From a virus, in the IMG/VR virus record IMGVR_UViG_3300036780_000012, positions 1-64,000 of that record: 64,000 nucleotides of DNA. One strand, 5' to 3'. A program made the position numbers and the translations under genes. Position 1 is the first letter of the stretch. Each line of letters starts with the position of its first letter. The notes under the pieces were generated by a model. It was not told the origin of the DNA. It saw only the letters and a program-made list of their open reading frames with translations, and made no database searches. Positions 2,525 through 55,366 of the stretch are shown here, piece after piece.

Positions 2525-3415
2525 TTACGACCACGATCCTACGTCGAATCCAGCAATGAATGTAGGGTTGAGATTGTCGAACCCGAATATCGGCAAGGTT
2601 GCGAACTCATAGGTATACTGCACCGCCTCAGGTCGCGGCACGATTAAACCATTTTCAATCATCTGCTGCTGAAGCGGGGAAAACGAGCCTACCAGAAATA
2701 CGGTGCATGTCATGTTCTGATTATCAGTGATATAGATTCGCCCACCGGGAAATATTACCTGCCACGGCTGCCATAGGCTCCCCGCCTGCCCATCCCAATT
2801 ATTCTGCAGAATCTTAGCTTGAATCAGGGTCAGATAGTCAGAGTCGTCCAAAATTGGACTTAGAGCAACGGCTAGAGGCGCGCTGATAGCATGATTCTTG
2901 GTAAATATTGCGTTAAACAATGTACCGAATGCATTGACCGAAGTAACGGTCACGGTCTCCTGATTGGACCCAGAATCGACCAGCATCTGTGTTATGCCTG
3001 GTACTAGCCCAATCATCGGAGTGTTGGGGAATGCGCCTTGAGGAGACGGGTTGGCGGTAATCGCATTCTGCAGGGTCGAGGTAATCGAGGTGGGAGTAAA
3101 CGGCAATATTCGACTTGCTCCGATCACCGTACCTACTGCGTCCAGTTGTACTCCTTGCGCTACTGGGCCAATCGCAGGATTGATATTGAATGCAGATCCT
3201 AGACCTATCGCACAAAACGCTACGTCGATGAATGGTTGCGCTAGGAGGGCAATGAATGCCTGCAGGTTAGGCGCATTCGCACCCTTGTACTGACTGGTAA
3301 GCAGACTTAGGTAGCAAGACAGAGCAGTACTACCACCGCCATAGCCGCCTTGCCCATAGCCGCCTTCGTTGTAGGCTTCCGCGAGCGTACCGATACAAGG
3401 TGAGTTTGTCGCCAT
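2525..3415 (-). CDS. Baseplate/tail-tip protein, DUF2612-like
   Basis: 296 residues; the start overlaps the upstream stop as TAATG. The C-terminal third has the pattern W-PWQVIFPGGRIYITDNQNM, then IENGLIVPRPEAVQYTY, as in DUF2612 phage proteins that sit beside baseplate J in contractile phages. A glycine-rich N-terminus precedes a middle beta domain. It carries one copy of the dispersed 14-bp palindrome at 2846-2859, read here as SPILDD. Likely attaches fibres to the baseplate; the function is inferred from position. Confidence 0.6.
   Translation of the reverse strand: MATNSPCIGTLAEAYNEGGYGQGGYGGGSTALSCYLSLLTSQYKGANAPNLQAFIALLAQPFIDVAFCAIGLGSAFNINPAIGPVAQGVQLDAVGTVIGASRILPFTPTSITSTLQNAITANPSPQGAFPNTPMIGLVPGITQMLVDSGSNQETVTVTSVNAFGTLFNAIFTKNHAISAPLAVALSPILDDSDYLTLIQAKILQNNWDGQAGSLWQPWQVIFPGGRIYITDNQNMTCTVFLVGSFSPLQQQMIENGLIVPRPEAVQYTYEFATLPIFGFDNLNPTFIAGFDVGSWS
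2846..2859 (-). repeat. Dispersed palindrome, copy 1
   Basis: GTCCAAAATTGGAC on the plus strand. On the coding strand it reads AGTCCAATTTTGGACG, with the better half first in the direction of transcription. It lies inside the DUF2612-like gene, far from any start codon. Confidence 0.8.
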
Positions 3416-6400
3416 TATTGCAACAGGTAAACGAAAATGTCAGATCGGGTATAGCCGACTACGTCTTTACCCAGTAATCCCAGCATAGAGGAGGTTTGCT
3501 CCCAGAGTGTGCCGTCCTGCGATACCGATCCGATGCCATCCCCCGCCTGAAATATCTGGATCGTATCGAACGGCCCAACATTCCCGCTTCCACAACCACC
3601 GCTCCCTAAGTTGCCGATACCTAGGATGAAGTTATGACCAAACCTACGTACCGTCCCTGCCGACCCTCCAGACGTGATCATAGCCCATACTTCGTTCTGT
3701 CCCATGCTGGTGAAAGTAGAAGTAGTGGCTGAAGTGCTGTAGTTATTATTGGAAGTAGAACCGATCCAAGGCTGCGTATCGCCCGAAGTTGCATTGCGCC
3801 AACTGAAGTGGTTGTCGCAGTTCGCCGCAGCGGCTGCACCGGTGTTGCCAGATACCGCTAAACTCATTTCGTCCAAATAGGCGCTTACCGTAGTCGCCGT
3901 ATAGCCTGCATCAATCTGGAACTGGATACCAATATTATCCGTCTCGGATACCGGAGCCGATGGTTCGGTAAGGTTAAGGGTATGTACTACTCCATCAACG
4001 GTGAGGCTATCGTAATACATACAAGGATTGCCGCCAGTACAGGAGGTATCACCAGGAACGCGGTGAGTAGCCCATACTACTGAATGCCAAGCAGCCGCCG
4101 TGGTAAGCAATGTACAAGGGACTGTAGTCGTTACCCAGGAGGTCGTGTATTGATTCCAGATTCTCCAGTAGCCCCCAGCCAATGTCGATGAATCACACTC
4201 CGAACCCATCATAAAACGCTGCCCACCTAGGAACTGGAACTGGTCAAATTCTAATGCTTGAATTGTAGATACCGTAGGCAGATAGACGTTATAAGTCCCG
4301 AGAAATGATGTAGCCGAACTGTTAGCCCCGACCTTGTTAGGCCATAACACATTAGTGGTCTGGCCGGAGGATAGTCCTGATTGCGCCGTGAATCCCACTT
4401 CCATACTCTCGCCATCCAGCGATGGTGATGCATTGTTGATAGTCTGAAAATAAGCGGTAGCCGTGCCTGTTCCTCCTGCACAACTTGGTCCATAACACGG
4501 CATCGGGTACTGCCATCCGCTTAACGAATCATCCAGGTTAGGGAAGGTATTGGTAAACGATCCGGACGTTGGCACGGTTCCAGTAGAAGGGTAGGGAGTG
4601 ACAGAATTCGCCGACTGCGGGGGGAATTGATAGAAATATGGATTGGCGGTAATCGCCATATTGTGATAGCCGACAGCATCATGGCCACCGACGCATAGAT
4701 TTGGACCTTGAACAGTAGTAGCGGAGCAGATTGCCTGGTGTAGAGTACCGGACTCGGAGAATATCTGGACATTGCCGCATCCTACGCCTGTAGATGCCCC
4801 CGACATCAATATCCACTCACCATCGTGGGCGATGAATCCATCGTGTTGCCGCATCAGTACGCATCCAGAGTCAAGTGTACCGGTGGCGCTGGACGACCAT
4901 GCACCCGTTCCGGTTGAGGTCCCTAGATAGGTGTTATAAACCTGACAGGCGGCAGGCGATAATTGCAGAACTACCCAGAATATGCCCGTACCCTGACCAC
5001 CTAGAACGGCTACCGATACCCCTGTCCCGGTCGCGCCAGCATATATAGTGGTAAGCGTACCCGATAAGCCGCCTGCATTAACCGAGGCAATAACGTAGAT
5101 GACTCCATTAATCTTGATCTGCGCGTATACGTCCGCACCATTAGTCAACAGGGCTTTAGGACCAGTCAAAGTAAATGCATTCGAGCCATTAGTGACAGCA
5201 ATCGTATCCACCCCGGCATTGATTGCCACTACTGGTGTAATATCGAAAGAGAAGATATTATCATTTACGTCGTGCGAAAATCCTCCGGAGTACTGCTGGC
5301 CGAATTGGATACCGTTTAGCAGTGGACAACTAGCCCCCACGTCCAGCACTGTAGTACGCGTGCCTGTTGGGACATGACCCGTTCCCCCATCTAATTCAAT
5401 AGCGTATATCTTAGGATCGCCAGCGCAGCCGCTGCAACTACTGTCGGGGGCTTCCATAAAGAACTTCTTATGATCCTGGTCACTGAATGCACTAAGGCCA
5501 TTCGGAGTCCCGAACTGTGGAGAACTGGTAGTTGGTAACGGCGCTACTACCTGTGGTGCTCCTCCAGCACCACTCTTAGTGATACCGAGCACGTATGGGA
5601 TACCACCGTATAGAACCGACATATAGTACAGAGTAGCGCCAGAACAATCGCCAGAAGTATCGGTTCGCCCGGTGCAGGACCATGTCTCGTCATTGTCACC
5701 ACCGGACGGGGTAGCTTGGATAGCATGGCCGCTAAGTTCCGTACAGTCAGTAGCACGAAGAATTGGGTCTACTCCCGAAGGGTTAATACTTGTATCGTAG
5801 CCAATAGAATTATATAGGCCATTGCCGGAACCGTTCGATGTTCCAGCCACACAGGTAGTACCATTCGAAGAAGAAGTATTAAACGGAGGAACTGGTGTCT
5901 GTATAACACTAGCGGAATTAGAGGAACAACCATAATTTGTTAGTGGTCCGCAACTGGCGGTCGAGGTGATATTAACGCTAACCTGAATGCTGGCGTTAAG
6001 ACCGACATTGTCGGTTACCTTTACTGTAGCGCTGCATGTTCCGCTTACGGCGGTTCCGGTAAGCGTGCCTGTATTGCTGGAATTGCCTAACGTAAGTCCG
6101 CAGGCAGTGAACGATCCGCTCGTGACTGACCAGGTATAGGGCAACGTCCCACCGATAGCTGAAAACGGAGGGGATAAAGCATAAGCCACTCCGTTAGTAC
6201 CGGAAGGTAGCGCGCATGGCTGTGTGACGCAAGTCGGAGTAGTGATCGTAGGTACTCCAGTGACGGTCAGGACAGCCGTTCCAACTACGGCAACTATGGA
6301 GATAGTACTTGTATAAGTTATGGTAGTAGTACCAGACGTCAGTCCAGTAGCCAGACCGGTCTGGTCAACCGTAGCTACCGCAGGATTAGAACTACTCCAC

Positions 6401-6636: not shown

Positions 6637-7325
6637 TTCGCCGCCACGGTCCAATTCGTGCCATTACAGAAAGCCAGTACCGCATCCGAACCACCGCCAG
6701 CTATCGTTGCCCCCCAGGTATTCGTAGTAGAGTCGGAAACCGTCTTTATCGCACCCATAATATTAGATACGCAAGCAGGCAGTGAGGTAAATATTGCTGG
6801 TTGGAATATTTGCGGCTGCGTGTAAGTCTGAGTAAGATTGAGGAATGCAAACGCCCGACCGAATCCATTCGGTCCGTTCGGGTAGAAGTAAAGAGAGTTA
6901 TTACTACTCAGTTCACAGATATAGTCTGGGTAACCGAAGGCCGCCAAATTGAATGCGCAGTATGAATCCGGCGTGAGGGCTAGATAGGACACACCAGATA
7001 CTTGTAGCGGTCCCGGTACTGGATTGGTAAATCCTCCGCAGCCAACACATGCCCCATTAACCGTCAAACTACCATTAATCACCAAACTACCGGGGAGGGG
7101 CTGTATGCCGCTCAAGTATGAATCCAGCATATCGAAGTTAGCATTCAGAAGAGTACCCCAGTTAGCCGCACCGCTTATGGGGAGATTTAATCCTAAATTG
7201 GGTGTAACTGGAGCCGTTACAGTTCGCAATATTGGCGGCGGAGGTTGCGAAGAAATAGTCTTATGTGGGCGGAGACACCCCGTAGTCACGACCAATAATA
7301 AAAGTAAGCCGTATACTTTCTTCAT
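6633..7325 (-). CDS. Lipoprotein-type tail-fibre protein
   Basis: 230 residues. The N-terminus is a lipoprotein signal (MKKVYGLLLLLVVTTGC), with Cys17 as the likely lipidated residue. Then follows a fibre-like motif (NLGLNLPISGAANWGTLLNA) seen at fibre N-termini, and a C-terminal tip ending GGGSDAVLAFCNGTNWTVAAK-like, as in fibre heads. A lipobox on a fibre-like protein is unexpected. Either it is displayed on the infected cell, or the host leader was captured. It overlaps the next gene by 4 bp. Confidence 0.6.
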   Translation of the reverse strand: MKKVYGLLLLLVVTTGCLRPHKTISSQPPPPILRTVTAPVTPNLGLNLPISGAANWGTLLNANFDMLDSYLSGIQPLPGSLVINGSLTVNGACVGCGGFTNPVPGPLQVSGVSYLALTPDSYCAFNLAAFGYPDYICELSSNNSLYFYPNGPNGFGRAFAFLNLTQTYTQPQIFQPAIFTSLPACVSNIMGAIKTVSDSTTNTWGATIAGGGSDAVLAFCNGTNWTVAAK

Positions 7326-22075: not shown

Positions 22076-23238
22076 GCTGCTACCAAACTTTCTTTCGAGG
22101 GGGATTGAACTGGCTTAACGCCATCTTCCAACCAAGAGCGCCAGCGAGTCCAGACGTTTCTCCAGTCGAGTTCCTCGGGGAGTTCCCCGCGTATCCCAAT
22201 AGAAGTCTCAATTTGCGTAGTCCAATTTTGGACTGAGAATACCGGACGGGAAGCGCCATAAATTCCATCGCTACGCAGAGCGATAGGTTCGACTAACTGC
22301 CATGGTCGCATCCATTCCGCCGCCCCGCCATAGTTACCATGCACACATGGCGTTCCGCACGCTAGTGACTCGAATATCGGATAACCGAATCCCTCACCGG
22401 ACCCGATACCAAGCGTTACATCACAGGCAGAGTAGTTCTCCGCCATCGCTTCATCCGAAAGCATTCCAGTAGTAACGCGCGCTTGCTGGATACCGAAGTC
22501 TTGAAGCAATCCGGGTATATCCCACTCACGAACGAGCGTATCTGTATGCAGCCAGAGTTCTATGTTTTTAGACTTCGCTAACTCCGCACAAGTCGCTATC
22601 CCTAGTCCCCAATCCTTACGCCGCTGATTCGTTGCGACAATTCCAATCCGTAGAGCTTCGGATGGCTTCCGTTCGCGGGGATAGAACACCGATGTATCAA
22701 TGCCATGCGGTAACGCTTCGAACTCGCATCCATCAAAGGTACGGCTTAGTATCTTCGCGGCCCACTCCGAGTACGCTAGAACGCGGTCATAGCCTTCAAT
22801 CGTTGCTTTCAGCACGCTTCCGAGTTTATCGTTCGGGCCAGTCGCATCTATTGGCAGATAGCCCCACTTCTTAAATAGTTTGCGCTCTAGAAATGACTTC
22901 ACGTACGGATCGGGGCAATACTCCGGCCTTGTAAACCAGAGCAATCGACTGACATCCCAAACAGTAAGCACTATGCCTTGCTGATCTCCTGCGAAGTCTT
23001 CCCAAACACTTGGCAGCGTTCGAGCCACCCAGCCCATAGAAGTATTATTGCCGAGAGACTCCATGTTGTACTGCTGAAATCCTAGTGCCTGCGAACCTGT
23101 ACCATTAGCCCCGTAGGTAGCTACACGAAACTTTGGACAGTAGCGAGCAATGCGAGTAGCTAAGTCGCGGACAATGCGCCCTAGTCCAGAGGAAGCGGTT
23201 GGAGCATCACCTAACAACAGTAGTGGAATAGGTCTCAT
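22072..23238 (-). CDS. Glycosyltransferase, GT4-like (GT-B fold)
   Basis: 388 residues. GDAPTASSGLGRIVRDLATRIA at the N-terminus, AYSEWAAKIL, EALPHGIDTSVFYP, IGIVATNQRRKDWG, and the C-terminal GIGSGEGFGYPIFESLACGTPC are hallmarks of GT4 enzymes (the E-x7-E region). It is probably cytoplasmic. It carries a palindrome copy at 22220-22233, read in another frame as VQNWTT. Confidence 0.85.
   Translation of the reverse strand: MRPIPLLLLGDAPTASSGLGRIVRDLATRIARYCPKFRVATYGANGTGSQALGFQQYNMESLGNNTSMGWVARTLPSVWEDFAGDQQGIVLTVWDVSRLLWFTRPEYCPDPYVKSFLERKLFKKWGYLPIDATGPNDKLGSVLKATIEGYDRVLAYSEWAAKILSRTFDGCEFEALPHGIDTSVFYPRERKPSEALRIGIVATNQRRKDWGLGIATCAELAKSKNIELWLHTDTLVREWDIPGLLQDFGIQQARVTTGMLSDEAMAENYSACDVTLGIGSGEGFGYPIFESLACGTPCVHGNYGGAAEWMRPWQLVEPIALRSDGIYGASRPVFSVQNWTTQIETSIGIRGELPEELDWRNVWTRWRSWLEDGVKPVQSPSKESLVAA
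22220..22233. repeat. Dispersed palindrome, copy 2 (perfect 16-mer)
   Basis: AGTCCAATTTTGGACT at 22219-22234, symmetric except for the central TT. It is inside the GT4 gene, in a reading frame different from the other copies (VQNWTT). Confidence 0.85.
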
Positions 23239-36055: not shown

Positions 36056-36216
36056 GCAGCCCTCATGTATTCGCGTATAGTTTTGTCCAATTTTGGACTG
36101 CGGACAAAAATCGGTCTTTTGCGCGCCATCCAGAGGGCATTAGCCAGCAAGCATCGACGGCACTTGCTATGCTCTTTTGCCCTCTGGCGCTGACAGTTTG
36201 GATTCGAACATTTCAT
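36052..36216 (-). CDS. 54-residue Cys-rich protein carrying a palindrome copy
   Basis: ATG at 36216 immediately after the upstream TAA; stop overlaps the next ATG. CSNPNCQRQRAKEHSKCRRC has four cysteines and likely binds zinc. The palindrome at 36085-36098 encodes SPKLDK here. Confidence 0.6.
   Translation of the reverse strand: MKCSNPNCQRQRAKEHSKCRRCLLANALWMARKRPIFVRSPKLDKTIREYMRAA
36085..36098 (-). repeat. Dispersed palindrome, copy 3
   Basis: Coding strand AGTCCAAAATTGGACA, better half first. Within the 54-residue gene, read as SPKLDK. Confidence 0.85.
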
Positions 36217-38938: not shown

Positions 38939-39292
38939 TTACAACGACAATGGCTGAGTTAGCGAGAATGGCCGACTGCCAGCGTTACCATTGCATAAAC
39001 AACAGGAAACTCCATTCATCAACTCGCCCGTCTCCTCGTTAACAACCCGGTCGTCTCGAAAGCCACCATGCCCTCCCCTACTTCGCTGGTGATCGAACGT
39101 AGGGTCAACGATTAAATGATTGCCGCGAACGCAGATATTATGCTGACGTAAGCGCATTTCTTCAGTACGTCGCATGTACTCTGCTCTACCTTTCGCTGTA
39201 TCGCAGCACACCTCGCGCCCATTCGGGTATCGACGCACGGCACCGTCACAAACTAATTCATACCGTAACGATGGTTTCGCTGAAACTGTCAT
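38939..39292 (-). CDS. HNH-like nuclease or zinc protein
   Basis: 117 residues. PTFDHQRSRGGHGGFRDDRV and VSCCLCNGNAGSR resemble an HNH variant with a degenerate metal site, with CCDTAKGRAEYMRRTEEMR upstream. Overlaps the next gene by 4 bp. It probably cleaves or binds DNA in the replication region. Confidence 0.6.
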   Translation of the reverse strand: MTVSAKPSLRYELVCDGAVRRYPNGREVCCDTAKGRAEYMRRTEEMRLRQHNICVRGNHLIVDPTFDHQRSRGGHGGFRDDRVVNEETGELMNGVSCCLCNGNAGSRPFSLTQPLSL

Positions 39293-39855
39293 GCCTGTTC
39301 ACTTACTAGCCACTCGATAAAGTCCTCTAGCGTAGCGGACTCATCGGTTAATTTGTAAGCTTCGTAACAGCCTTCAATCTTCGACCATTGACTTGCTGTG
39401 AATCGCAAGCGGTGCTCTACTACGCTTTCAATATGTTGCTGAGGAAATTCCTGCTCAAGTACCTGGCGCAGTTCGGCAGGCTTCATCTTGGCAGCTTGTC
39501 TAATTTTGGACTGGCGTCGAACTCCTGAAGAGAGTTGCTTCAGGATGCCAGCCGAACCAAGAGGAATCTGCTCTAGTTCTTTGTCGGGAATATCAGGAGC
39601 AAGTTCCTTGTAACGATTTATCACTAGGTAAAGATAACTCCGCGATCTGGGAGCGGCATCGACAATCCATTTGGTGAAAGATTCAAACCCAAGCAGTTCC
39701 CAATCCTTATCACGCTCAACATCTACACAGCACTTCGCAATCGAGACCCAATTCGAGAATTGCTCATCAAAGGCACGGACAAAACTGTCTCGTGCTATGG
39801 CTCGCTGCTTTGGAGTTAGAGCCTCACTTGAATTTTTATTTATTTTATTAATCAT
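39289..39855 (-). CDS. Putative DNA-binding phage protein
   Basis: 188 residues, all helical. LLGFESFTKWIVDAAPRSRSYLYLVINRYKELA looks like an HTH, followed by LEQIPLGSAGILKQLSSGVRRQ and a C-terminal TLEDFIEWLVSEQ. Family not named with certainty. A palindrome copy lies inside (39498-39511), read as QSKIRQ. Confidence 0.5.
   Translation of the reverse strand: MINKINKNSSEALTPKQRAIARDSFVRAFDEQFSNWVSIAKCCVDVERDKDWELLGFESFTKWIVDAAPRSRSYLYLVINRYKELAPDIPDKELEQIPLGSAGILKQLSSGVRRQSKIRQAAKMKPAELRQVLEQEFPQQHIESVVEHRLRFTASQWSKIEGCYEAYKLTDESATLEDFIEWLVSEQA
39498..39511 (-). repeat. Dispersed palindrome, copy 4 (one mismatch)
   Basis: Coding strand AGTCCAAAATTAGACA: the better half is intact and first, the other half has G to A. 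Frame differs from most other copies (SKIRQ). Confidence 0.75.
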
Positions 39856-41571: not shown

Positions 41572-43798
41572 TGACTTCCTCCTCGTCCAAAATTGGACTG
41601 TCGATAGCACTCTCTGAGAACAAACCTTTATTCATCGTTGCGGCTGCCGCAAGATTTGCGCACGCCTGCTTCCAGTAAGACTCTTTTAATTCGATCCCGA
41701 TAAACTTTCTTTGCACCTTGACTGCCTCATACCCCTCACTACCGATCCCCGCGAAAGGTGAAAGTACGGTATCAAATGGGTTCGTCCACAACTTCAAAGC
41801 ACGAGCAATTACTTCCAACTGCAAAGGACATATATGCCGCTCGTCGCGTTCTTCGCGTGCCGATTCACGTTGCAAAGTATCGCTCGGATTGATATCCATC
41901 CAGACAGGAGAGGCATAGCGCTGCCAGACTTGTACCGGTAAATCCTCTGCCGTATGAGTTACACGTTGGGGATTGTCTCCATGCTTTCGCATTGTTACCA
42001 GATAATCCGGAATGCCTTGACGGCTCATGCACGAATCTTTCTTGAGTTGTTTATGAAGTAATCCGAGAGCTTTGGTTCGCTGCATCGCAGTCACAGGATC
42101 TTTCCAGATAGTTACCTGCGAATGCAGAATGAATCCAGCCTGCTCGAATAGAGCAATGAGCTTGCCGCGAAAATCCGTGATACCAATTACACCGTCTCGT
42201 TCTTTCGATGTAGGGAGGTCCATGCAGTGAAAACTCATCAGTCGCCCAGGCAGCAGAACTCGTAGCAATTCGGGAGCGAGAAAGCGAAGATGCTCAAAGA
42301 ACTCCTCATGCGTCCGGGAATTCCCCATATCACGTTCTGAAGCTGAATACGTGTAGAGCGATGCGAACGGAGGGGAAAAAATACTGTAGTGAATTGAGTT
42401 GGCGGGGAACTTGGATAGAACCTCCACGCAATCACCTAGATGCATCGTCCAGACTTCGCCAGCATCAATCTTGTGCTCGTAATTGACTTTCTGGCGAACA
42501 TTGCCCTTGATCTCTGCTTGATTTAATTCGTGCATGTTGTTCACCATCTCTTCTGCCATCCTCTGAGCATCGGCCTCTTTGCGTTTGATATTCTTCACTA
42601 CTTCTCCCTCGGCTGTACTGGTAACTATGTAACAATCAACTTCTTGCTTTTGTCCGAACCTCCAACACCTTCTCACCGCTTGGTAAAATTGTTCGTATGA
42701 ATCAGACAACCCGAGAAATACAACGTTATGGCAGTTTTGCCAGTTGAGCCCGAATCCTGCGATGCTAGGTTTCGTGACCAGTATCCGAATCTTGCCCGTA
42801 GCAAAGTCAATCATGCTGCGTTCTTTGAATTCAATCGAATCAGAGCCGCATACCTCAACTGCTCCGTCAATTCGCTCGACCGCAGCCCGACTTTCACTGT
42901 TAAGATTGCACCATATTAACCATTGCTCTTTTCGCTTTGCAGAAACAATTGCCGCTACCTCGTCGGCCCGTTCCTCGACACTCTTAGATCGGGCTTGTTG
43001 GCGCTCTTGTAGTGTAACGGCTGGCATCTGAAAGAGCATTCCTTCCGTGCATGTTTCGGCATCGACCTGACGCTCGTGAATTCTTAAGGCAGGCAGTTGA
43101 AACAGATCATCGTTATATCCGAGGTCTGACGGTTTGCGTAGCATTACTGCCCAAGAACATACCCACTTCCAGAACTTCGTCTCAGCATGACCCTTGAGCC
43201 GCCATTTCGATGTATCCCCACCATCATGCACAAAGAATGTTGAAAGCATTTCTGTGCGCGTCAGGTTGCCTAAAAATTCTGAATGGTTACCGAGTTCCAT
43301 GAAGTCATTCGGGGCTGGGGTTGCCGTACATGCAAGTTTGTACGGGGTATCACGAAATCTCTCGATAATTAGATTGCGGAACTTCCCTTCAAAATGCTTG
43401 ACAATGCTCGATTCATCTAGGATGATTGCTTCGTATTTATTCGCATTGAAGTGCTCTAACATTTCATAATTGGTGATTGTAATAGCAGCATCGCGTTCAG
43501 GCTTGCGCTGATAACAGACTTCAACATCGAATTTCCCGCCTTCGCGCACCGTTTGAGGAGCTACGGCAAGAGGGGCGAGAATCAGCGTCTTAACTTTCAA
43601 TGCATCGGCCCATTGCAACTGCATTGGTGTCTTACCTAATCCACAATCTGCAAAAATAGCAGAGCGCCCTTTGCGAGCGGACCATCGCGTAATATCTATC
43701 TGAAAATCAAACAACTGCTTATTTAGGCCGACAATATCTTTTCCAGATGCGACATGCGTCACTACTTTTGACGCTAAGAATTGTTTATAGTTCTTCAC
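41561..43798 (-). CDS. Helicase-DNA methyltransferase fusion
   Basis: 745 residues. Residues 1-440 are SF2/SNF2-like: Walker A ADCGLGKT (51-57), DE box ILDES (127-131), ACTATPAPNDF motif III, and motif VI QAVRRCWRFGQ. Residues about 480-720 are a methylase: YSIFSPPFASLYTYS (SPPF catalytic motif) and VLSPFAGIGSEGYEA (SAM motif). The domain order suggests a methyl transfer coupled to DNA unwinding. A palindrome copy at 41585-41598 lies in the last 15 codons (SPILDEEE). Confidence 0.85.
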   Translation of the reverse strand: MKNYKQFLASKVVTHVASGKDIVGLNKQLFDFQIDITRWSARKGRSAIFADCGLGKTPMQLQWADALKVKTLILAPLAVAPQTVREGGKFDVEVCYQRKPERDAAITITNYEMLEHFNANKYEAIILDESSIVKHFEGKFRNLIIERFRDTPYKLACTATPAPNDFMELGNHSEFLGNLTRTEMLSTFFVHDGGDTSKWRLKGHAETKFWKWVCSWAVMLRKPSDLGYNDDLFQLPALRIHERQVDAETCTEGMLFQMPAVTLQERQQARSKSVEERADEVAAIVSAKRKEQWLIWCNLNSESRAAVERIDGAVEVCGSDSIEFKERSMIDFATGKIRILVTKPSIAGFGLNWQNCHNVVFLGLSDSYEQFYQAVRRCWRFGQKQEVDCYIVTSTAEGEVVKNIKRKEADAQRMAEEMVNNMHELNQAEIKGNVRQKVNYEHKIDAGEVWTMHLGDCVEVLSKFPANSIHYSIFSPPFASLYTYSASERDMGNSRTHEEFFEHLRFLAPELLRVLLPGRLMSFHCMDLPTSKERDGVIGITDFRGKLIALFEQAGFILHSQVTIWKDPVTAMQRTKALGLLHKQLKKDSCMSRQGIPDYLVTMRKHGDNPQRVTHTAEDLPVQVWQRYASPVWMDINPSDTLQRESAREERDERHICPLQLEVIARALKLWTNPFDTVLSPFAGIGSEGYEAVKVQRKFIGIELKESYWKQACANLAAAATMNKGLFSESAIDSPILDEEEVIGN
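41585..41598 (-). repeat. Dispersed palindrome, copy 5
   Basis: Coding strand AGTCCAATTTTGGACG. It lies in the last codons of the helicase-methylase gene, about 14-27 bp upstream of the TTG start at 41571 of the second methylase. Confidence 0.85.
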
Positions 43799-47843: not shown

Positions 47844-48040
47844 GGCTTCCACAACCTCGTTCCCGCCCAGATAAAGAACCACCAGAAACCGATACAGAAG
47901 GCGAATAGTCCGATGCCTACAAGTACCTGAGTTAACGGGTTAACCTTGTCCAATTTTGGACTGCCTATCTCCGGCTCCTCGACCTTAATCCCGAGCTTAT
48001 GAAAGTACTTCTTGTCTTCAATGCCCCAGGTTTCGCTCAT
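47840..48040 (-). CDS. Single-span membrane protein with palindrome copy
   Basis: 66 residues. A soluble start (MSETWGIEDKKYFHKLGIKV) is followed by one membrane span (VLVGIGLFAFCIGFWWFFIW). A palindrome copy at 47948-47961 encodes SPKLDK just before the span. Overlaps neighbours by 4 bp. Confidence 0.6.
   Translation of the reverse strand: MSETWGIEDKKYFHKLGIKVEEPEIGSPKLDKVNPLTQVLVGIGLFAFCIGFWWFFIWAGTRLWKP
47948..47961 (-). repeat. Dispersed palindrome, copy 6
   Basis: Coding strand AGTCCAAAATTGGACA, better half first. Read as SPKLDK inside the small membrane gene. Confidence 0.85.
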
Positions 48041-48482: not shown

Positions 48483-48521
48483 GCGAGACTCTTCGCCATG
48501 TCAAATACCTTAGCCCTCATC

Positions 48522-49712
48522 TCACGCCTCCGGCCCAAACAGTTCTTGCTCTACCGCTTCATCCGCTGACATCGCAGCCTGTTCTTCGGCAGGCTTATCA
48601 TCTACGAACTTCACGCCAGCTAGTTCGAGTAGGTGCTCTACCTGAAAGAACTCTTTCCCATCTTTTGTTTCCTGTCGCGAGACTTCTGCCAACATCGTCT
48701 TGGGATAGGCACCGGCAATAAAGTAATCATGCATCGACTTATGCCAGACGTACAGTTTGCCATCCTGATTCTGTTGGTTCACGACAGAGAGTACAAGATA
48801 CGGCTCTCCAGGTTCGCCTTTTTTTGTCGCCTTCTTATTCTTTTTCTCTGCCGCCTTTACTAAGTACACCGCAGCGGTAATCGGCTTTGAGGTTAGACGG
48901 TCCTGTTCGGCGTGCTTGCAATCCTTTTCATGGCCACCGATTTTTCGGCATTCTCCACACATGGTTGGAGCTTCTTTTGCCGGGGCCTGAGCCTGTTCGT
49001 CTTTGTCCAATTTTGGACTGGCGTTTCTGCTAAGGCCAGTATCCTCATGTCCCCGATTTGGTTCGGAGGATGGTTGCAGATTCGCAATATCCAAGGTCAT
49101 TGACTCACGCTGGGTTTTCGCCTGTGAGGTATCTGTAGGAATATCCATTGCTTCCTCGGCTAGCGAGATACCTTTGAGTACATCGGCGAAGGAATCGCGC
49201 AAGGCAAATCCTCTCGCTCTCATCTGTCTCATGCGGTTTCGATATTGAATCCACGGGCCTTTGTTTAACAGGCCAGCTTTCGCAGCGTCGTCATCGCTGA
49301 ACTTACGTATCACCGGAGAACGCCCACGACGCTTTACAATGCAGGTTGCGACCGTTCCCTCTGTGCTTTCCTGAATGTCTTCGAAGTCAGGATGTCCGGA
49401 GCAAAGGGCTAAAGCTCCATCGCCCCAGAGAGCAGGTCTGCCGTTAATCACCGATACAGACTGCAAGGATTGCATGGGCGGTAAGCCGATCTCCGCGCCG
49501 AACTGGATCGCCACAATAATATTTGCAGGTTTCTTCTGATAATCTTTCGGTACGATCTCGCTTGCGGCCATCATCTTTGCGAGAGCAATCGCCTCGGTAA
49601 GATTTGCAGGAGTAAAGGCGGCGAGTCGAGTTTGTTTTGCGCTGCGGTTAGTGTCGATTGCGACAGCAGGTTGGACAGGGAGAGCGAGAGCGTATTGCTT
49701 TGCTTCTGACAT
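48522..49712 (-). CDS. recT: RecT-family ssDNA annealing protein
   Basis: 396 residues. Core about 30-190: MMAASEIVPKDYQKKPAN, IIVAIQFGAEIGLPPMQSLQSVSVINGRPALWGDGALAL, GLLNKGPWIQYRNRMRQMRARGFALRDSFADVLKG, all classic RecT. A disordered linker at about 195-260 carries the palindrome copy at 49005-49018 (SPKLDK) and a CGEC-type zinc motif follows. It pairs single strands in recombination with the nuclease upstream. Confidence 0.9.
   Translation of the reverse strand: MSEAKQYALALPVQPAVAIDTNRSAKQTRLAAFTPANLTEAIALAKMMAASEIVPKDYQKKPANIIVAIQFGAEIGLPPMQSLQSVSVINGRPALWGDGALALCSGHPDFEDIQESTEGTVATCIVKRRGRSPVIRKFSDDDAAKAGLLNKGPWIQYRNRMRQMRARGFALRDSFADVLKGISLAEEAMDIPTDTSQAKTQRESMTLDIANLQPSSEPNRGHEDTGLSRNASPKLDKDEQAQAPAKEAPTMCGECRKIGGHEKDCKHAEQDRLTSKPITAAVYLVKAAEKKNKKATKKGEPGEPYLVLSVVNQQNQDGKLYVWHKSMHDYFIAGAYPKTMLAEVSRQETKDGKEFFQVEHLLELAGVKFVDDKPAEEQAAMSADEAVEQELFGPEA
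49005..49018 (-). repeat. Dispersed palindrome, copy 7
   Basis: Coding strand AGTCCAAAATTGGACA, better half first, in the disordered linker of the RecT gene (SPKLDK). Confidence 0.85.
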
Positions 49713-50879: not shown

Positions 50880-51111
50880 CTGCTTTCCTTTCGAACTTTC
50901 TCATTTCGCGACCGCGCTCCATCGCTTCATACTCCTCTTGCGCCTGCCGCTGCCGAATGCGTCTCATGCAGTCCAAAATTAGACAGCGCTGACTGTTCTT
51001 CTTAGCGCTCCAATCAACCGGATTGCACGTGCGGTTTAAGAATTGCTGAAGCAGACGCAATACGGTAGTCGATTGATCGTTTAACTCCACAGCGTTCCCT
51101 TTCCCTGCCAA
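50872..51111 (-). CDS. Small helical protein with palindrome copy
   Basis: 79 residues. VLRLLQQFLNRTCNPVDWSA, MRRIRQRQAQEEYEAMERG. Overlaps the nuclease gene by 8 bp. The palindrome at 50971-50984 is read as LILDC, in the opposite orientation to most other copies. Unknown function. Confidence 0.55.
   Translation of the reverse strand: MAGKGNAVELNDQSTTVLRLLQQFLNRTCNPVDWSAKKNSQRCLILDCMRRIRQRQAQEEYEAMERGREMRKFERKADA
50971..50984 (+). repeat. Dispersed palindrome, copy 8 (one mismatch, reversed)
   Basis: Plus strand AGTCCAAAATTAGACA. The gene is on the minus strand, so this is the one asymmetric copy whose better half comes last in the direction of transcription. Confidence 0.75.
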
Positions 51112-51251: not shown

Positions 51252-52040
51252 TTATTTCACCGCTATCATACGTTTGACCAAATCAACAGCGGAATTCTGT
51301 AGAACTACCAAAGTCGGTTTCAAAGCAGCCCTCGCAGCAGCCCACGCAGCAGCCCTCGCAGCAGCCCCCGCAGCAGCCCCCGCAGCAGCCCCCGCAGCAG
51401 CCCACGCAGCAGCCCCCGCAGCAGCCCACGCAGCAGCCCTCGCAGCAGCCCCCGCAGCAGCCCCCGCAGCAGCCCCCGCAGCAGCCCCCGCAGCAGCCCT
51501 CGCAGCAGCCCCCGCAGCAGCCCACGCAGCATCCCTCGCAGCAGCCCTCGCAGCAGCCCCCGCAGCATCCCTCGTAGCAGCCCTCGCAGCATAAGCATTA
51601 TCGCGGACGGCTTCTATAGTGCCGCGAATAGAAGGTGTTTGAGTAAAGTCGGTAATTCTCGGCAGCGATTCTAGCGCTTCGGCACTAGTAGTCAAGCCAG
51701 CTAACCGCAACCACATTGGAGTATGTACGCGAATCAGCCAATCGGCGCATAGTATCGCTCGCTGAACCTCTACCTCTTTCGTTGATCGGGTACCGATTAG
51801 ATCGCGGATAAGCGGCTTCAAAAGACGGTCACGGTCCGCATCGCTTGGCAATGCATCATTCCATGAACGCAGGAAAGCGCTGATAACCGGACAAGCGCAT
51901 TTAGGATGGTCGCTCCATGATTCACCCGCAACAAAGGCAACAGCTTCCATCACGCAGAAAGTCGAGTCCGGGGAATGCGCTCCGGCTTTCAAAGATAAGT
52001 TAGCAAGTTTATTCCAACGTTCTTCAATTACTGGAGTCAT
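51252..52040 (-). CDS. Phage protein with long alanine tetrad repeat
   Basis: 262 residues. Residues 1-150 are a helical domain common in phages (STFCVMEAVAFVAGESWSDH, SAFLRSWNDALPSDADRDRL, LCADWLIRVHTPMWLRLAGL). Residues about 150-240 are AAxA tetrads (AARA, AAGA, AAWA) in a long helix or bundle. The tail is NSAVDLVKRMIAVK. The DNA repeat is 12 bp, so copy number changes keep the frame. The role is unknown; families of this design occur across actinophages and soil phages. Confidence 0.7.
   Translation of the reverse strand: MTPVIEERWNKLANLSLKAGAHSPDSTFCVMEAVAFVAGESWSDHPKCACPVISAFLRSWNDALPSDADRDRLLKPLIRDLIGTRSTKEVEVQRAILCADWLIRVHTPMWLRLAGLTTSAEALESLPRITDFTQTPSIRGTIEAVRDNAYAARAATRDAAGAAARAAARDAAWAAAGAAARAAAGAAAGAAAGAAAGAAARAAAWAAAGAAAWAAAGAAAGAAAGAAARAAAWAAARAALKPTLVVLQNSAVDLVKRMIAVK
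51324..51592. repeat. 12-bp tandem repeat (minisatellite) coding for Ala tetrads
   Basis: About 22 copies of GCAGCAGCCCNC-type units, differing mainly at two positions (ccc/cct/cca and c/a). All three minus frames and one plus frame stay open. Likely unstable in replication and variable among relatives. Confidence 0.9.
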
Positions 52041-52067
52041 TAAAGTATTTTCCTTTCCTGAAACCTG

Positions 52068-52313
52068 TCAGTGTGTTTCCTTGTCAAGATGGCGAACGCA
52101 ACGGGCCTCGTCGCCATCTGGTAACAACTGCACCGCTGCCTCTTCTCCGCACTCGCGCCCTTCCCTGTTTACGAATGAGCAAGCAACGCTATTTACTTCG
52201 CGCAAGCATTCCTCGGTACAACGGTGAAGTAATTCTTCACTTGGCAGGACGAGCACGCGCAGAGCCTGGTTCATCTGGTTTACGATCTCTTTTGCTTCTT
52301 GAGCGGATGACAT
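52068..52313 (-). CDS. Small Cys-rich hypothetical protein
   Basis: 81 residues. AQEAKEIVNQMNQALRVLVL then CTEECLREVNSVACSFVNRE and ARCVRHLDKE; several cysteines may bind zinc. SD AAAGGGG upstream. Unknown. Confidence 0.6.
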   Translation of the reverse strand: MSSAQEAKEIVNQMNQALRVLVLPSEELLHRCTEECLREVNSVACSFVNREGRECGEEAAVQLLPDGDEARCVRHLDKETH

Positions 52314-52546
52314 AATTCCCCTTTTGGCTTTCGACCAATCATTCGCAGGGTGCTGGAGTGTCTCGATCGGGAGTACATCCCTATGCTATCTACCCAGTCC
52401 ATTTGGCATGCCTTTATATGCGGCTGGACTCGACGCTGCTGCGTCTCGAAGGATCTATAGCGGGAGCCGCCCCGCAGATCGGCAGAAATCATCGCACTCA
52501 ATCGGGTTGTCCTCGCAGCACCCAGCGAATTACTGGCTTGTCTCAT
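52280..52546 (-). CDS. Basic hypothetical protein (doubtful)
   Basis: 88 residues with a GGAG/TTAGGA ribosome site, but Arg/Ser-rich composition without clear fold (RTTRLSAMISADLRGGSRYR). Overlaps the next gene by 34 bp. May be a chance open frame. Confidence 0.3.
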   Translation of the reverse strand: MRQASNSLGAARTTRLSAMISADLRGGSRYRSFETQQRRVQPHIKACQMDWVDSIGMYSRSRHSSTLRMIGRKPKGELCHPLKKQKRS

Positions 52547-52549
52547 ATC

Positions 52550-52735
52550 CTAACTCCACATCTTCCACGTTACAGCCAAACCAACTGCAATGATCCCGCA
52601 GACTATAGCCAGCAAAAAGTAATCCGTTCGCTGACTATTCAGAACGCAGAGACCATAGCCGTTATTCTCCAAATCCTCGGGGCCGACGTACCGTCCTCCG
52701 CATAGGCAGCAATAAGTTGCAGGTTTGAATTTCAT
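52550..52735 (-). CDS. Zinc-knuckle membrane protein
   Basis: 61 residues from an ATG at 52735 with AGGAGG 6 nt upstream. FKPATYCCLCGGRYVGPEDL is a Cys knuckle, followed by one span (FLLAIVCGIIAVGLAVTWK). A palindrome copy lies 14 bp upstream of the start. Confidence 0.65.
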   Translation of the reverse strand: MKFKPATYCCLCGGRYVGPEDLENNGYGLCVLNSQRTDYFLLAIVCGIIAVGLAVTWKMWS

Positions 52736-52748
52736 GGGACGCCTCCTG

Positions 52749-52762
52749 TCTAAAATTGGACT
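52749..52762 (-). repeat. Dispersed palindrome, copy 9 (one mismatch, in a leader)
   Basis: Coding strand AGTCCAATTTTAGACA. The only full-length copy in an untranslated leader, directly before the AGGAGG of the 52735 gene. Confidence 0.75.
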
Positions 52763-52809
52763 ATCCAACTATTCTCCAAGGCCAGCCGCCCGGAAGAATA
52801 GCTCGGCAG

Positions 52810-52974
52810 TCAAAGCACCTGCGAAGGTTGCGATGGGACCGCCGAAACCTTAGCCGCTACCGTTTCCCAAGCTTTCTGCTGCGCGCTTCCAATACATTCC
52901 CATTTTAGGGAGATCATTCTGTTGGTTTTGTAAAGGGCATTGATGTATGTTTCGTAGAGCAATCTATCTTTCAT
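52810..52974 (-). CDS. 54-residue phage protein, first gene of the minus operon
   Basis: ATG at 52974 with GAGG 8 nt upstream; stop at 52810. LYETYINALYKTN, MISLKWECIGSAQQKAWETVA follows a common small phage pattern (W-x-x-IG-x-x-x-x-x-AW). It is the first gene after the minus promoter at 53012-53041. Confidence 0.7.
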   Translation of the reverse strand: MKDRLLYETYINALYKTNRMISLKWECIGSAQQKAWETVAAKVSAVPSQPSQVL

Positions 52975-53011
52975 TGGCTTGTCCTCGCAGGTGGATTTCG
53001 ATTACGAAACC

Positions 53012-53041
53012 AATATACGCAGACTCTCAAACTTCTGTCAA
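53012..53041 (-). promoter_or_regulatory. Strong promoter reading leftward into the 52-kb block
   Basis: Consensus -35 TTGACA (53041-53036), 18 bp, TATATT (53017-53012) on the minus strand; start expected near 53005, giving a 30-nt leader. Its -35 lies in the left arm of the inverted repeat. Confidence 0.7.
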
Positions 53042-53084
53042 GCATTATTTAACATTATTTAACAGCCGTTATTATTTGCTTGAC
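53037..53084. promoter_or_regulatory. 48-bp inverted repeat spanning both divergent -35 boxes
   Basis: GTCAAGCA (53037-53044) and TGCTTGAC (53077-53084) are perfect inverted arms; each contains most of one -35 box. The middle holds a tandem CATTATTTAA (53043-53062) and a related TTATTATTT. One dimer on each arm could silence both promoters. Confidence 0.65.
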
Positions 53085-53108
53085 TTCCGCAAAACGCAGG
53101 TTTACAGT
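53080..53108 (+). promoter_or_regulatory. Rightward promoter for the RHH regulator, leaderless
   Basis: TTGACT (53080-53085), 17 bp, TACAGT (53103-53108). Transcription would start at about 53115, one base before the ATG at 53116, so the mRNA is probably leaderless; no SD exists. Confidence 0.6.
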
Positions 53109-53115
53109 CTCGTTC

Positions 53116-53268
53116 ATGAGCGATTCCCCGATTACATTTCTAAGATTGCCAGAATCACTCCGCAAGGAAGCGCAGAAACTTGCGGTGCGGGAGGATCGGT
53201 CTCTAGCTAACACGCTGCGTATGCTGATTAAGGAAGCATTACAAGCTCGAAACGGGAAGGCGAGATGA
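53116..53268 (+). CDS. RHH (CopG/Arc-type) regulator
   Basis: 50 residues from the ATG at 53116. SPITFLRLPESLRKEAQKLA is the beta strand and first helix, then VREDRSLANTLRMLIKEALQ the second. The pattern PITF-R-P-L...RS..N...L..EAL is shared with the RHH part of the 1183 fusion, so they are paralogues. It heads the plus operon and faces the minus operon across the inverted repeat, so autoregulation and repression of the left block are likely. It is also a candidate to bind the dispersed palindrome. Confidence 0.85.
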   Translation: MSDSPITFLRLPESLRKEAQKLAVREDRSLANTLRMLIKEALQARNGKAR

Positions 53269-53687
53269 GCCCTCGAATCAGTTTTACCGTAATCGGAACT
53301 CCTCAACCACAAGGCTCTAGCCGCGCATTCGTTCCGAAAGGCTGGACGCGGGCAATCATTACGTCAGCTAACTCGAAGCTCAAGCCGTGGCGCCAGGAGA
53401 TTGCAGGGACCGCCCAAGTAGCGATGAACGAGTCCAAAATTGGACTACTCGAAAATGTCCCGCTCGCTATCGAAGCTGCCTTCTTTTTTGATAAGCCTAA
53501 ATCCGCAAAGAAGTCATTGCTTCATAAGATCACAAAACCAGATGCCGACAAACTGTTGCGCGGTTTGCTCGATGCACTAACCGGGATCGTATTCAAAGAC
53601 GATGCTCAGATCGTCCAGTGCATCGTTAGAAAAGGGTTTGGAGTTCCTAGCAGAGTCGAGGTTTCCGTAATGGGGGTTTCGCAATGA
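53265..53687 (+). CDS. rusA: RusA-type Holliday junction resolvase
   Basis: 140 residues. ITKPDADKLLRGLLDALTGIVFKDDAQIV is the family core; Asp93, Asp95, Asp103 and Asp112/113 are the likely metal ligands. N-terminal FTVIGTPQPQGSSRAFV fits. ATGA overlap with the RHH gene. Contains palindrome copy 10, read in a different frame (SKIG). Confidence 0.9.
   Translation: MSPRISFTVIGTPQPQGSSRAFVPKGWTRAIITSANSKLKPWRQEIAGTAQVAMNESKIGLLENVPLAIEAAFFFDKPKSAKKSLLHKITKPDADKLLRGLLDALTGIVFKDDAQIVQCIVRKGFGVPSRVEVSVMGVSQ
53431..53446. repeat. Dispersed palindrome, copy 10 (perfect 16-mer)
   Basis: AGTCCAAAATTGGACT, symmetric except for the central AA, inside rusA in the frame ESKIGL. Confidence 0.85.
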
Positions 53688-53848
53688 CCGACAAGCAATA
53701 TCACGACCTGATAGAAATTCTGGAACGTGCATGGCAGCGAGCCGAACGATTACCGACAATCAGCCGCGAACGCGATGCTCAGTTAGACGATTTGCGGCGA
53801 GCGTTGAATATCTTGTTTGAGATATGGCAGGTTAAGGAGACAGCGTGA
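53684..53848 (+). CDS. 54-residue helical protein
   Basis: ATG at 53684 overlapping the RusA stop (ATGA), ending in GTGA with the next gene. LIEILERAWQRAERLPTISR, LDDLRRALNILFEIWQ: a small helical protein of unknown role. Confidence 0.6.
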   Translation: MTDKQYHDLIEILERAWQRAERLPTISRERDAQLDDLRRALNILFEIWQVKETA

Positions 53849-54297
53849 GCAATAGTGTTTGCCTTTTCGTATCAACCGAGGAGTTCGATCCTGTTTCCGC
53901 GCTGATTCGAGCGCGTACTGAATGCGATTGGTCGCATGTAGGTTTCTACCGACTCGCGAGTAATGTAACGTTTAGCGCTATGTGTGACGGTAAAGGCGTG
54001 GCATGGCGAGCCTTACGACCAATGCAGAAGATCATGTTGCTGGACGCACCGCATGTAGATGAAGCATTTTCGTATGCGCTAACTCAGTCTGGAAAGCCGT
54101 ACAACACTATCGACATCGCCGGGTTAGCCGTAGGCCGCAACTGGGAGACCGTCGATAGCTTTATTTGCTCTACGCTCGTTCTCTGGGCATTCGAGAAGGC
54201 TGAGTATCCGCTTCTCAACCCTACATTCATTCCGCTGGAACATTACACGCCACGCGACATCTTGTTGAGTCCGTACGTGCAGGAAAGGAAACCATGA
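53845..54297 (+). CDS. Permuted NlpC/P60 (YiiX-like) papain-fold enzyme
   Basis: 150 residues from GTG. WSHVGFY supplies His31, a KPYNTIDIAG loop follows, then SFICSTLVLWAFEKA with Cys108, and PLEHYTPRDILLSP at the end: the permuted NlpC/P60 order (His before Cys). Such proteins cut peptides or lipids; here it may modify the cell wall. Part of the plus operon. Confidence 0.75.
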   Translation: MSNSVCLFVSTEEFDPVSALIRARTECDWSHVGFYRLASNVTFSAMCDGKGVAWRALRPMQKIMLLDAPHVDEAFSYALTQSGKPYNTIDIAGLAVGRNWETVDSFICSTLVLWAFEKAEYPLLNPTFIPLEHYTPRDILLSPYVQERKP

Positions 54298-54569
54298 AGC
54301 TGGACGAGAAGCAGATAGAGGAATTACGTCAGTGGGCTTGGGAAGAGGGTTGGGAGGGAAGTCCAACTGGACCTATACACCATCCTGTCAGGCTTGAGAT
54401 TAGCACGGAGCCAGACTTACTTCCGGGGAAGAAGCCTTGGGCTGGACGGTACTTTCAACGAGTTGTGGCGCGTGTCTATCTCGTCGAGCCAAGCTGTATA
54501 GGCCCCGGACACGATGACAATTTAGCTATTTGTGAGTGCGAACCGCTTGCGGTAAGGAGATTGCAATGA
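54294..54569 (+). CDS. Hypothetical protein
   Basis: 91 residues: LRQWAWEEGWEGSPTGPIHH, RVVARVYLVEPSCIG. Family unknown. ATGA overlaps on both sides. Confidence 0.55.
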   Translation: MKLDEKQIEELRQWAWEEGWEGSPTGPIHHPVRLEISTEPDLLPGKKPWAGRYFQRVVARVYLVEPSCIGPGHDDNLAICECEPLAVRRLQ

Positions 54570-55366
54570 AGAAAAACCCTACATCTTTCGACCTGATCGC
54601 CGCATTGGATAAGCGGGTAAAAGCAATCGAGAATGAACCTGTTCCGACGACGCCTAAACTCGCTTTACTTTGGCACCAGCGCGATATTGAAGATTACAAT
54701 TCCATGCGCGGTATGGTGAAAGAAGTATCAGATGCGCCTAAGATTACACAGTTAGAAGAGTTTGATAAAACAACGTTGTCCCCAGAAGAGCGCGAAGCAT
54801 TAGCTAGGATTCTCGCTGCTCCTTCCCGTCCTCCTGTTCGCTGGCCGCGATGGGTAACGGTACTGGCGCTAGCAGGGTTCATAGTCTTTATAGGGTGGCG
54901 AGTCAGTCCAAAATTGGACAAGAATGCTCCCATGCGTCCTACTGCGGATAGTGTATTCTGCCCGGAAGGTAAACTCTGTCCTGATAATAGTGGCTACAAC
55001 CCTCAGCAGAATAACATGGGTTACTTATATCCTAATACGGATGGGCATATTGCTGCGAGTAGCGGCACGGGTACGGTAGGGACCGTAATTCTAAAACGAT
55101 ATTCCAAATGGCTGCTTGCAGTTTCCCCGCAGATCGAGGACTGCTGGATACGCATTAGCGTAGGCGATAGTCGGGTCGTGGCCGAGGGAACGGTTATGGG
55201 CGGGAATATAGATACTTATGCGTTCCCTGTCGGTCAAATAGCCACCGTGCGTACAGGATGCCCCGGTGGCGTACGTTACTGGGTAAACGGCGAAGAGATT
55301 CAACCTGAAGAGTCTAAGCAGCCGCATGATACGAGCAAGGTCGAACTGGTAGAGGTTAAACCGTGA
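54566..55366 (+). CDS. Single-span protein with palindrome and large C-terminal domain
   Basis: 266 residues from the ATG at 54566 (TAAGGAG 6 nt upstream). A soluble helical N-terminus, a membrane span at about 97-117 (WVTVLALAGFIVFIGWRVS), then the palindrome-encoded SPKLDK and a beta-rich outer domain with paired Cys (FCPEGKLCPDN; DCWIRISVGDS; GCPGGVRYWVNGEEI). Probably exposed on the periplasmic side. Unknown function. Confidence 0.65.
   Translation: MKKNPTSFDLIAALDKRVKAIENEPVPTTPKLALLWHQRDIEDYNSMRGMVKEVSDAPKITQLEEFDKTTLSPEEREALARILAAPSRPPVRWPRWVTVLALAGFIVFIGWRVSPKLDKNAPMRPTADSVFCPEGKLCPDNSGYNPQQNNMGYLYPNTDGHIAASSGTGTVGTVILKRYSKWLLAVSPQIEDCWIRISVGDSRVVAEGTVMGGNIDTYAFPVGQIATVRTGCPGGVRYWVNGEEIQPEESKQPHDTSKVELVEVKP
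54906..54919 (+). repeat. Dispersed palindrome, copy 11
   Basis: AGTCCAAAATTGGACA at 54905-54920, better half first in the direction of transcription, read as SPKLDK just after the membrane span. Confidence 0.85.

Follow-up and report, generated by a model that had tools for sequence, protein, structure and literature searches.

The question raised by this soil phage DNA is why one short palindrome recurs inside gene after gene, and what reads it. The stretch analysed, hereafter the window, comprises 64,000 nucleotides (positions 1 to 64,000 of the 73,588-bp IMG/VR record IMGVR_UViG_3300036780_000012, here G000) and holds eight exact and three one-mismatch copies of the 14-bp core motif GTCCAA-WW-TTGGAC. 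The array goes with one uncharacterised phage protein, P188, and this association suggests a regulator, made by the phage, that binds DNA and controls or organises the viral genome. Sequence comparison makes P188 the probable binder of the sites, and we favour, at a probability of roughly 0.55, the reading that they are P188 recognition sites through which phage transcription would be regulated genome-wide, with P188 limiting itself.

The original prediction described a 16-bp element; the core is 14 bp, and the 16-bp form AGTCCAA-WW-TTGGACT occurs only twice in the record. Every coordinate given for the eight exact copies holds, as do those of the one-mismatch copies at 39498 and 50971; the third, formerly placed at 52749, starts one base earlier at 52748. 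The eleven sites of the window, with two relatives described below (G001 and G017) named where they share a site, are as follows.

2846..2859, no strand assigned: exact copy (GTCCAAAATTGGAC) within a predicted structural gene, 2525-3415 (-)
22220..22233, no strand assigned: exact copy within a glycosyltransferase-like gene, 22072-23238 (-), in phase 0 (VQNWT); one of two outlying sites
36085..36098, - strand: exact copy within the open reading frame (ORF) 36052-36216, conserved in G001 and G017, both with the site at the same place
39498..39511, - strand: one-mismatch copy within the P188 gene; 14 of 14 bases kept in G017
41585..41598, - strand: exact copy at the 3' end of gene 41561-43798, where it overlaps the start of gene 40618-41610 or lies just upstream of it
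47948..47961, - strand: exact copy within the small gene 47840-48040 (SPKLDK)
49005..49018, - strand: exact copy within a RecT-like gene, 48522-49712 (SPKLDK)
50971..50984, + strand: one-mismatch copy within gene 50872-51111 (-); polarity against transcription
52748..52761, - strand: one-mismatch copy just upstream of gene 52550-52735 (-)
53432..53445, no strand assigned: exact copy within the RusA gene (+); 14 of 14 bases kept in G001, where the flanks are 75% identical
54906..54919, + strand: exact copy within gene 54566-55366 (+) (SPKLDK)

A twelfth copy, with one mismatch, lies just beyond the window at 64701 of the record. Twelve copies with at most one mismatch compare with a mean of 0.043 and a maximum of 1 in 300 first-order Markov resamplings of G000, which bears out the earlier estimate of far fewer than one copy by chance and rules out a chance origin of the array. 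Two-mismatch copies are at background (0 seen, 0.7 expected from 20 resamplings of G000), and the motif set is therefore sharply bounded. Nine of the twelve copies are intragenic, one straddles a gene junction and the other two are intergenic according to simple gene calls (those of the IMG/VR records came from a simple script); one of the two intergenic copies, at 36085, falls in a conserved 54-codon ORF missed by the gene caller. The 3' end of the record (L005:18570-18588; record 73570-73588) reads AATGATACGGCGACCACCG, which we take to be the Illumina P5 adapter sequence, and this contig end is probably an assembly artefact.

An exact 14-mer scan of viral contigs returned at least 117 stretches, eight of which (L115-L122) lie outside the follow-up. 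Most of these stretches are single chance occurrences. In the 100 exact-match records followed up, copies with at most one mismatch number one in 93 records, two in five, three in G083 and five in G043, and four further records of the scan hold one or two. Two records are conspicuous among the motif matches listed, G001 (63.2 kb, 5 copies) and G002 (41.1 kb, 10 copies). The proteins of G000, G001 and G002 have little in common, and what they share is mostly early genes; P188, its HNH-like neighbour and RusA are present in all three. Searching viral contigs with these three P188 sequences yielded four records: G001, G002, G017 and G018. The 46.3-kb G018 carries 15 copies, 2 of them exact, and was reached via the protein, not being among the motif matches listed; the 5.7-kb G017 carries 2 copies and was reached independently via the motif (as L006) and via the protein. 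In the annotated phage collection, relatives of P188 occur only in two cultured Acidobacteriota phages, the Tunturiibacter phages Tunturi_1 (29.8% identity over 60%) and Tunturi_2 (28.6% over 64%). The relative in Tunturi_1 is gp51, with 230 residues, encoded at 42752-43444.

A motif-blind search for inverted repeats (6-bp arms, gaps of 0-10 bp) finds GTCCAA-2-TTGGAC to be the commonest palindrome in Tunturi_1 (5 copies) and Tunturi_2 (6), where three second-order Markov resamplings of each genome give a commonest-palindrome count of only 1-2. The same palindrome comes top in G000 (8), G002 (7) and G001 (4), and in G018 an inner form, TCCAAATTTGGA, is on top with 6 copies. With one mismatch allowed, the wider pattern GTCCAAWNTYGGAC occurs 10 times each in Tunturi_1 and Tunturi_2 and not at all in the 494 kb of Tunturi_3, Tunturi_4 and Tunturi_5, whose hosts belong to the same genus and in which a P188 profile search, whose control positives were members of the profile itself, also gave no match. 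The motif is accordingly not equally frequent in unrelated phages, an outcome on which the original prediction had staked itself. No more relatives were found in viral contigs or plasmids with the Tunturi_1 protein. The terminase of the window proved no guide to array phages: ten records carrying its relatives contain no site and, in a search made without a positive control, no P188 match. G043 was likewise rejected as a further array phage; its five copies in 31 kb come without P188, its palindrome is not among the top repeats of a 12.6-kb stretch, and three of its four mismatches fall at positions unused elsewhere.

The array records are thus seven (G000, G001, G002, G017, G018, Tunturi_1 and Tunturi_2), of which the IMG/VR ones may be fragments. 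The genes that bear on the choice of a binder were compared by iterated profile searches of 104 G000 ORFs against ORFs of at least 40 codons from all seven, and are located in the window as follows.

39289..39855, - strand: P188, 188 residues, the proposed site-binding protein; the sole gene family to be detected in every array record (7 of 7)
38939..39292, - strand: HNH-like gene (our reading), directly downstream of P188 and overlapping its stop; 5 of 7
53265..53687, + strand: RusA Holliday junction resolvase; 6 of 7, absent from the 5.7-kb fragment
53080..53268, + strand: RHH (Arc-like) protein, earlier put forward as binder; 4 of 7

The motif led to G000, G001 and G002 before the gene came into view, and the test of co-occurrence lies in G017, G018, Tunturi_1 and Tunturi_2, and three of these four (G018 and the two Tunturi phages) were reached by protein alone, their arrays being found afterwards. 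Neither of the binders initially suggested keeps such company with the sites. The RHH protein is detected in G000, G001, G002 and G018, and its related PHROGs are Arc-like repressors, both of which speak for it; it is not detected in the array-bearing Tunturi_1 and Tunturi_2 by phrog_3431 and by a four-protein profile (best E 0.84), and the gene for the Fis-like protein (44039-44260) is confined to G000 and G001. Binding of the sites by the RHH protein, or by some other small regulator of the phage, is accordingly a distinctly improbable account. G000 holds a second RHH (Arc-like) match, in the protein at window 1084-1740 (+). A Pfam scan of the window's HNH-like protein is empty, and its G018 homologue resembles Endonuclease_7 weakly (E 3e-4, below cut-off). 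The RusA genes of G000 (53265-53687) and G001 (4277-4726) have a site at the same place, that of Tunturi_1 (40494-40907) has one at another place and codon phase, and those of G002 and G018 have none inside.

On what the sites are selected for, the evidence comes from 54 sites in six records, Tunturi_2 being left out as a near copy of Tunturi_1; some sites are homologous between records, which makes the P values optimistic. The palindrome might simply be a by-product of the protein motif SPKLDK, and several copies do encode SP(K/I)LD. Nevertheless, the 36 intragenic sites are divided equally between codon phases 1 and 2, with 17 in each, and only 2 are in phase 0; one DNA sequence thus encodes SPKLD, SKIG or VQNW depending on phase, and 16 of the 54 site centres are intergenic (8.1-8.5 expected under local shifts). 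Together with the 12 copies seen for 0.043 expected, these counts refute both chance and a shared SPKLDK as the origin of the array, and the motif is not confined to SPKLDK coding, the situation in which the original prediction would have been abandoned. Most of the 54 sites are intragenic; 24 of them are no more than 50 bp from the start or end of a gene, compared with 14.4-15.4 under local shifts (P 0.002-0.006).

Mismatches are patterned as well. In the five IMG/VR records, 21 of 22 fall at the symmetric positions 1/14 and 4/11 (P 1.4e-9, positions chosen post hoc); these 21 are mostly transitions, and the remaining one is an inner A-to-G. Such changes bear on the idea that the element acts in RNA, as a hairpin serving as terminator, antiterminator or processing site. 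A short stem is possible in the transcript, yet the common C-to-T change leaves U.G in 6 transcripts and C.A in 8, so the form that can pair is not preferred; a role in RNA is very unlikely for this reason, and the 12 terminator-like stems listed for 36000-55500 are all clear of the nine sites in that stretch. A restriction or methylation site was discounted by argument, since an element of 14 bp whose arms do not vary is too long for one.

Where relatives can be aligned, sites are mostly kept: 27 of 28 bases at two sites shared by G000 and G001 (flanks 76% identical) and 28 of 28 at two shared by G000 and G017 (flanks 71% identical). All three aligned sites of G002 are still sites in G018, though bases differ; one, scored as 14/14 at G018 18977, adjoins an alignment gap and truly has one mismatch. 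In these records most site pairs lack a counterpart that can be aligned. Tunturi_1 and Tunturi_2 are too alike to inform, with flanks 98-100% identical around most sites; the Tunturi_2 site at 45710 has two mismatches in Tunturi_1, and the Tunturi_1 site at 52830 lacks an aligned counterpart. Judged by phases, intergenic sites, patterned mismatches and kept sites, selection acts on the DNA and not on the protein, as had been proposed at the outset.

The P188 gene itself is among the places where sites recur. Four of six P188 genes (G000, G017, G001 and G018) contain a site, P 0.002 against uniform placement, or three of five (P 0.01) if the 5.7-kb fragment is left aside. The position is the same in G000 and G017, six codons earlier in G018, and near codon 39 in G001; sites at three different positions therefore look like repeated gain, as for autoregulation. 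The parB gene of B. subtilis itself holds a parS.

P188 gives little away in profile searches. At E 0.1 the protein of the window matches nothing in Pfam or PHROG, its relatives match nothing below E 0.04, and no Pfam match to the ParB N-terminal CTPase domain is found in the five IMG/VR P188 proteins scanned; the G017 protein weakly resembles a Borrelia replication/partitioning family of NCBIfam (E 0.002, far below the family cut-off). The best second-look structural match of two AlphaFold models of P188 is in both cases Thermus Spo0J (ParB), with Z 4.1 and 4.6 and an alignment over residues ~66-136 (63-66 residues at 2.8-2.9 A, in low-confidence models). A structure search of a viral library has uncharacterised phage proteins as its best matches (E 0.03); DUF3102 and chromosome-partitioning entries score no better than E 3.8 and 6.6. 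On these models P188 probably holds a ParB-like helix-turn-helix without a recognised CTPase domain, although the fold evidence alone is insufficient. Short-pattern scans of 84,980 prokaryote genomes, which can miss relatives, found none of P188.

Several genes around P188 deserve a word in their own right. The DNA methylase at window 40618-41610 (-) has an N-terminal match to a "ParB-like partition nuclease" PHROG (phrog_15396, E 6e-6), and a methylase with this match is encoded near P188 in G000, G001 and G017. At window 41561-43798 (-) a helicase and a DNA methylase are fused, the corresponding region of G017 being two ORFs. Farther away, window 51252-52040 (-) encodes a repetitive, alanine-rich protein (AARAAAGAA-type repeats), of which G002 has a relative (6460-7251). 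A mostly intergenic cluster of sites surrounds a DUF932 gene (G002 8276-9103), at 7822, 8247 and 9283 in G002 and at 8494, 8747 and 10116 in G018, and may be a good place for a promoter-type operator.

The sites are also oriented. Among the eleven copies of the window the better half comes first in the direction of transcription in eight, is reversed in one (50971) and cannot be told in two symmetric copies, which agrees with the eight of nine first reported; the copy at 64701 is a second exception in G000. When polarity is called from an A that precedes the site with no T following it, read along transcription, the five IMG/VR records give 24 sites with the A-side first and 3 in reverse (P 5e-5). 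Intergenic sites of these records alone give 6:0, and codon preference is therefore not the whole cause. The asymmetry is limited to the flanking A, to which Tunturi_1 adds a degenerate second half.

How far known systems help in reading such an array may be judged from four of them. The L5 stoperators, to which the array was first likened, are described in PMC9283540 as 13-bp asymmetric elements of temperate phages, found in promoters and in the short spaces between genes, bound by a repressor monomer of 183 residues and oriented with transcription, with control of initiation and elongation proposed. In common with that description of L5 (cluster A), the array has many copies of a short dispersed site, an orientation correlated with transcription (24:3 in IMG/VR), proposed control of initiation and elongation, and a proposed binder of similar size; unlike L5 as so described, it consists of 14-bp palindromes (collected here with a palindromic 14-bp pattern, which bears on the comparison of symmetry), is mostly intragenic, and occurs in phages without a detected tyrosine integrase. 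Because the sites are palindromic and largely intragenic, any stoperator likeness would be functional at most. The array would work like an L5 stoperator at most and is not one, nor is it a ParB/parS system. Of the oriented, stoperator-like array first proposed, the orientation stands in the IMG/VR records taken together and the element is shared by relatives; the sites are palindromic, and the role of a lysogeny repressor finds little support.

ParB-parS and Noc-NBS, going by the account in PMC7383237, likewise have multiple palindromic sites (16 bp there), and a ParB-like helix-turn-helix is suspected in P188; they differ in that P188 matches no ParB N-terminal domain of Pfam, no ParA was found, and the motif departs from the parS (TGTTTCACGTGAAACA) and NBS (TATTTCCCGGGAAATA) given there. 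The lack of a ParA-type ATPase (PF13614) in the seven array records, five of which may be fragments, makes partition unlikely; Tunturi_5 has one. The OB operator of KorB is palindromic and present in about a dozen copies. KorB of RK2 is a ParB-family repressor that, as reported in PMC11790492, acts from a 16-bp OB near to or far from promoters; dispersed operators and perhaps the helix-turn-helix are shared with P188, whereas KorB works together with KorA as a CTPase clamp and P188 lacks a recognised CTPase domain. Finally, the SPBRE of SP-beta, a repeated 15-bp phage motif, was found in silico before its binder MrpR (YopR), according to PMC10516654, and here too a repeated phage element was found before a candidate phage-encoded binder; the same paper places SPBRE in promoter and intergenic regions and gives MrpR a tyrosine-recombinase-like fold and a role in maintaining lysogeny, in which it differs from the present case. 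None of the four versions of the 14-mer occurs in the literature searched, which sustains the view that the element is a new set.

Lysogeny control by the array is unlikely in general on three counts: in none of the seven array records, the IMG/VR ones of which may be incomplete, does a tyrosine integrase (PF00589) score over cut-off (G018 has a match below it, E 0.005), short-pattern scans found no P188 in prokaryote genomes, and the Tunturi viruses, in the account of PMC11924767, have lytic cycles, annotated recombinases or integrases being confined to Tunturi 3-5. G002 and G018 encode a serine recombinase (Resolvase domain), whose profile matches none of the other five array records, and these two may be temperate.

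How P188 might act can be outlined as follows, binding, dimerisation and an effect on transcription all being things that we infer. A P188 dimer would occupy the palindromes through its ParB-like helix-turn-helix; GTCCAAAATTGGAC, GTCCAATATYGGAC and GTCCAATATCGGAC are predicted targets of P188 and of Tunturi_1 gp51. The 5-15 sites of each longer record lie in many cases at gene junctions, in many others inside genes, and often in the P188 gene. Bound upstream of genes, P188 would block initiation; bound to oriented sites within operons, it would impede or pause the polymerase; and through the site in its own gene it would limit its own synthesis. Directly supported are the array, selection at the DNA level, the co-occurrence with P188, the orientation in one group and the bias towards gene junctions. 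A sigma-70 promoter search of 36000-55500 is uninformative (15 promoter-like sites, 18.7 in shuffles). That transcription is the main target of P188 strikes us as an even bet. The fullest version of the proposal is tentative and falls somewhat short of that: a new phage-only ParB-like family, without CTPase or ParA, whose oriented and mostly intragenic array would pace elongation or structure the genome of lytic Acidobacteriota phages, with no role in lysogeny.

The main rival keeps P188 as binder and has it organise or mark the genome (compaction, replication, recombination or packaging, in the manner of parS or NBS) instead of regulating transcription. The ParB-like second-look match would fit such a function, as would the many sites deep within genes and the fact that the next most shared families are the early-region RusA and the HNH-like gene. 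Two distributional results lean the same way. In Tunturi_1 the better half, GTCCAAT, lies on the + strand in 10 of 11 unequal copies (at most two mismatches), and three of these ten sit in - strand genes. The largest-empty-arc test is positive in G001 (P 0.005) and G002 (P 0.04), and not in G018 (P 0.27), Tunturi_1 (P 0.72) or G000 (P 0.40); the density in the early region noted originally thus stands as a post hoc count (9 of the 12 G000 copies within 36-55 kb) and is not significant by this test. The missing PF13614 ATPase, the orientation with transcription in the IMG/VR group and the excess of sites at gene junctions and in intergenic places speak against genome organisation, which we regard as rather unlikely.

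Alternatively, the sites could be operators of a host (Acidobacteriota) factor exploited by the phages, a thought encouraged by the fact that both named carriers, Tunturi_1 and Tunturi_2, grow on one host strain. Tunturi_3 was isolated on that same strain, Tunturiibacter psychrotolerans X5P2, according to PMC11924767, and neither it nor Tunturi_4 nor Tunturi_5 has a copy; this, and the co-occurrence of the array with a phage gene in seven of seven records, makes a host factor improbable.

Several findings weigh against regulation by P188 as set out above. Polarity in Tunturi_1 follows the genome more than transcription, and a half-site score over the 54 sites gives 29 in the same sense as transcription and 10 opposed (G018 6:4, Tunturi_1 6:2), a tally that uses a wrong G017 gene call (4059-4169, the place of P188 on the other strand) and in which correction would move one opposed site to the same sense; the phase of that site is unaffected, and the counts of junction and intergenic sites, of A-side polarity and of mismatches use the corrected call. 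Multiple copies occur without P188 in G043 (5) and G083 (3), five more records have two copies each, and RusA is found in six of seven array records, so that co-occurrence alone does not exclude it. The P188 genes of G002, Tunturi_1 and Tunturi_2 have no site, and three of seven aligned G018 sites are not kept in G002, from which it follows that there is site turnover too. Confidence in the two AlphaFold models is low (mean pLDDT 60 and 66), plain Foldseek puts Spo0J third at E 6.4 with nothing in the PDB below E 4.7, a Z under 5 may reflect a common arrangement of helices, and profile searches of solved structures with P188 return no ParB.

Regulatory arrays of dispersed sites are known in a small number of temperate phages and plasmids. 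In searches of PMC, no DNA-binding regulator tied to sites in Acidobacteriota phages and no paper on phage ParB-like regulators were found, and none on Acidobacteria prophage repressors that looked relevant. In the present case comparison alone connects an array with its likely binder, and two cultured isolates make direct testing possible. If the reading is true, it would show how selection maintains operators inside genes that are unrelated to one another, and it may add a ParB-like protein that works without a CTP switch.

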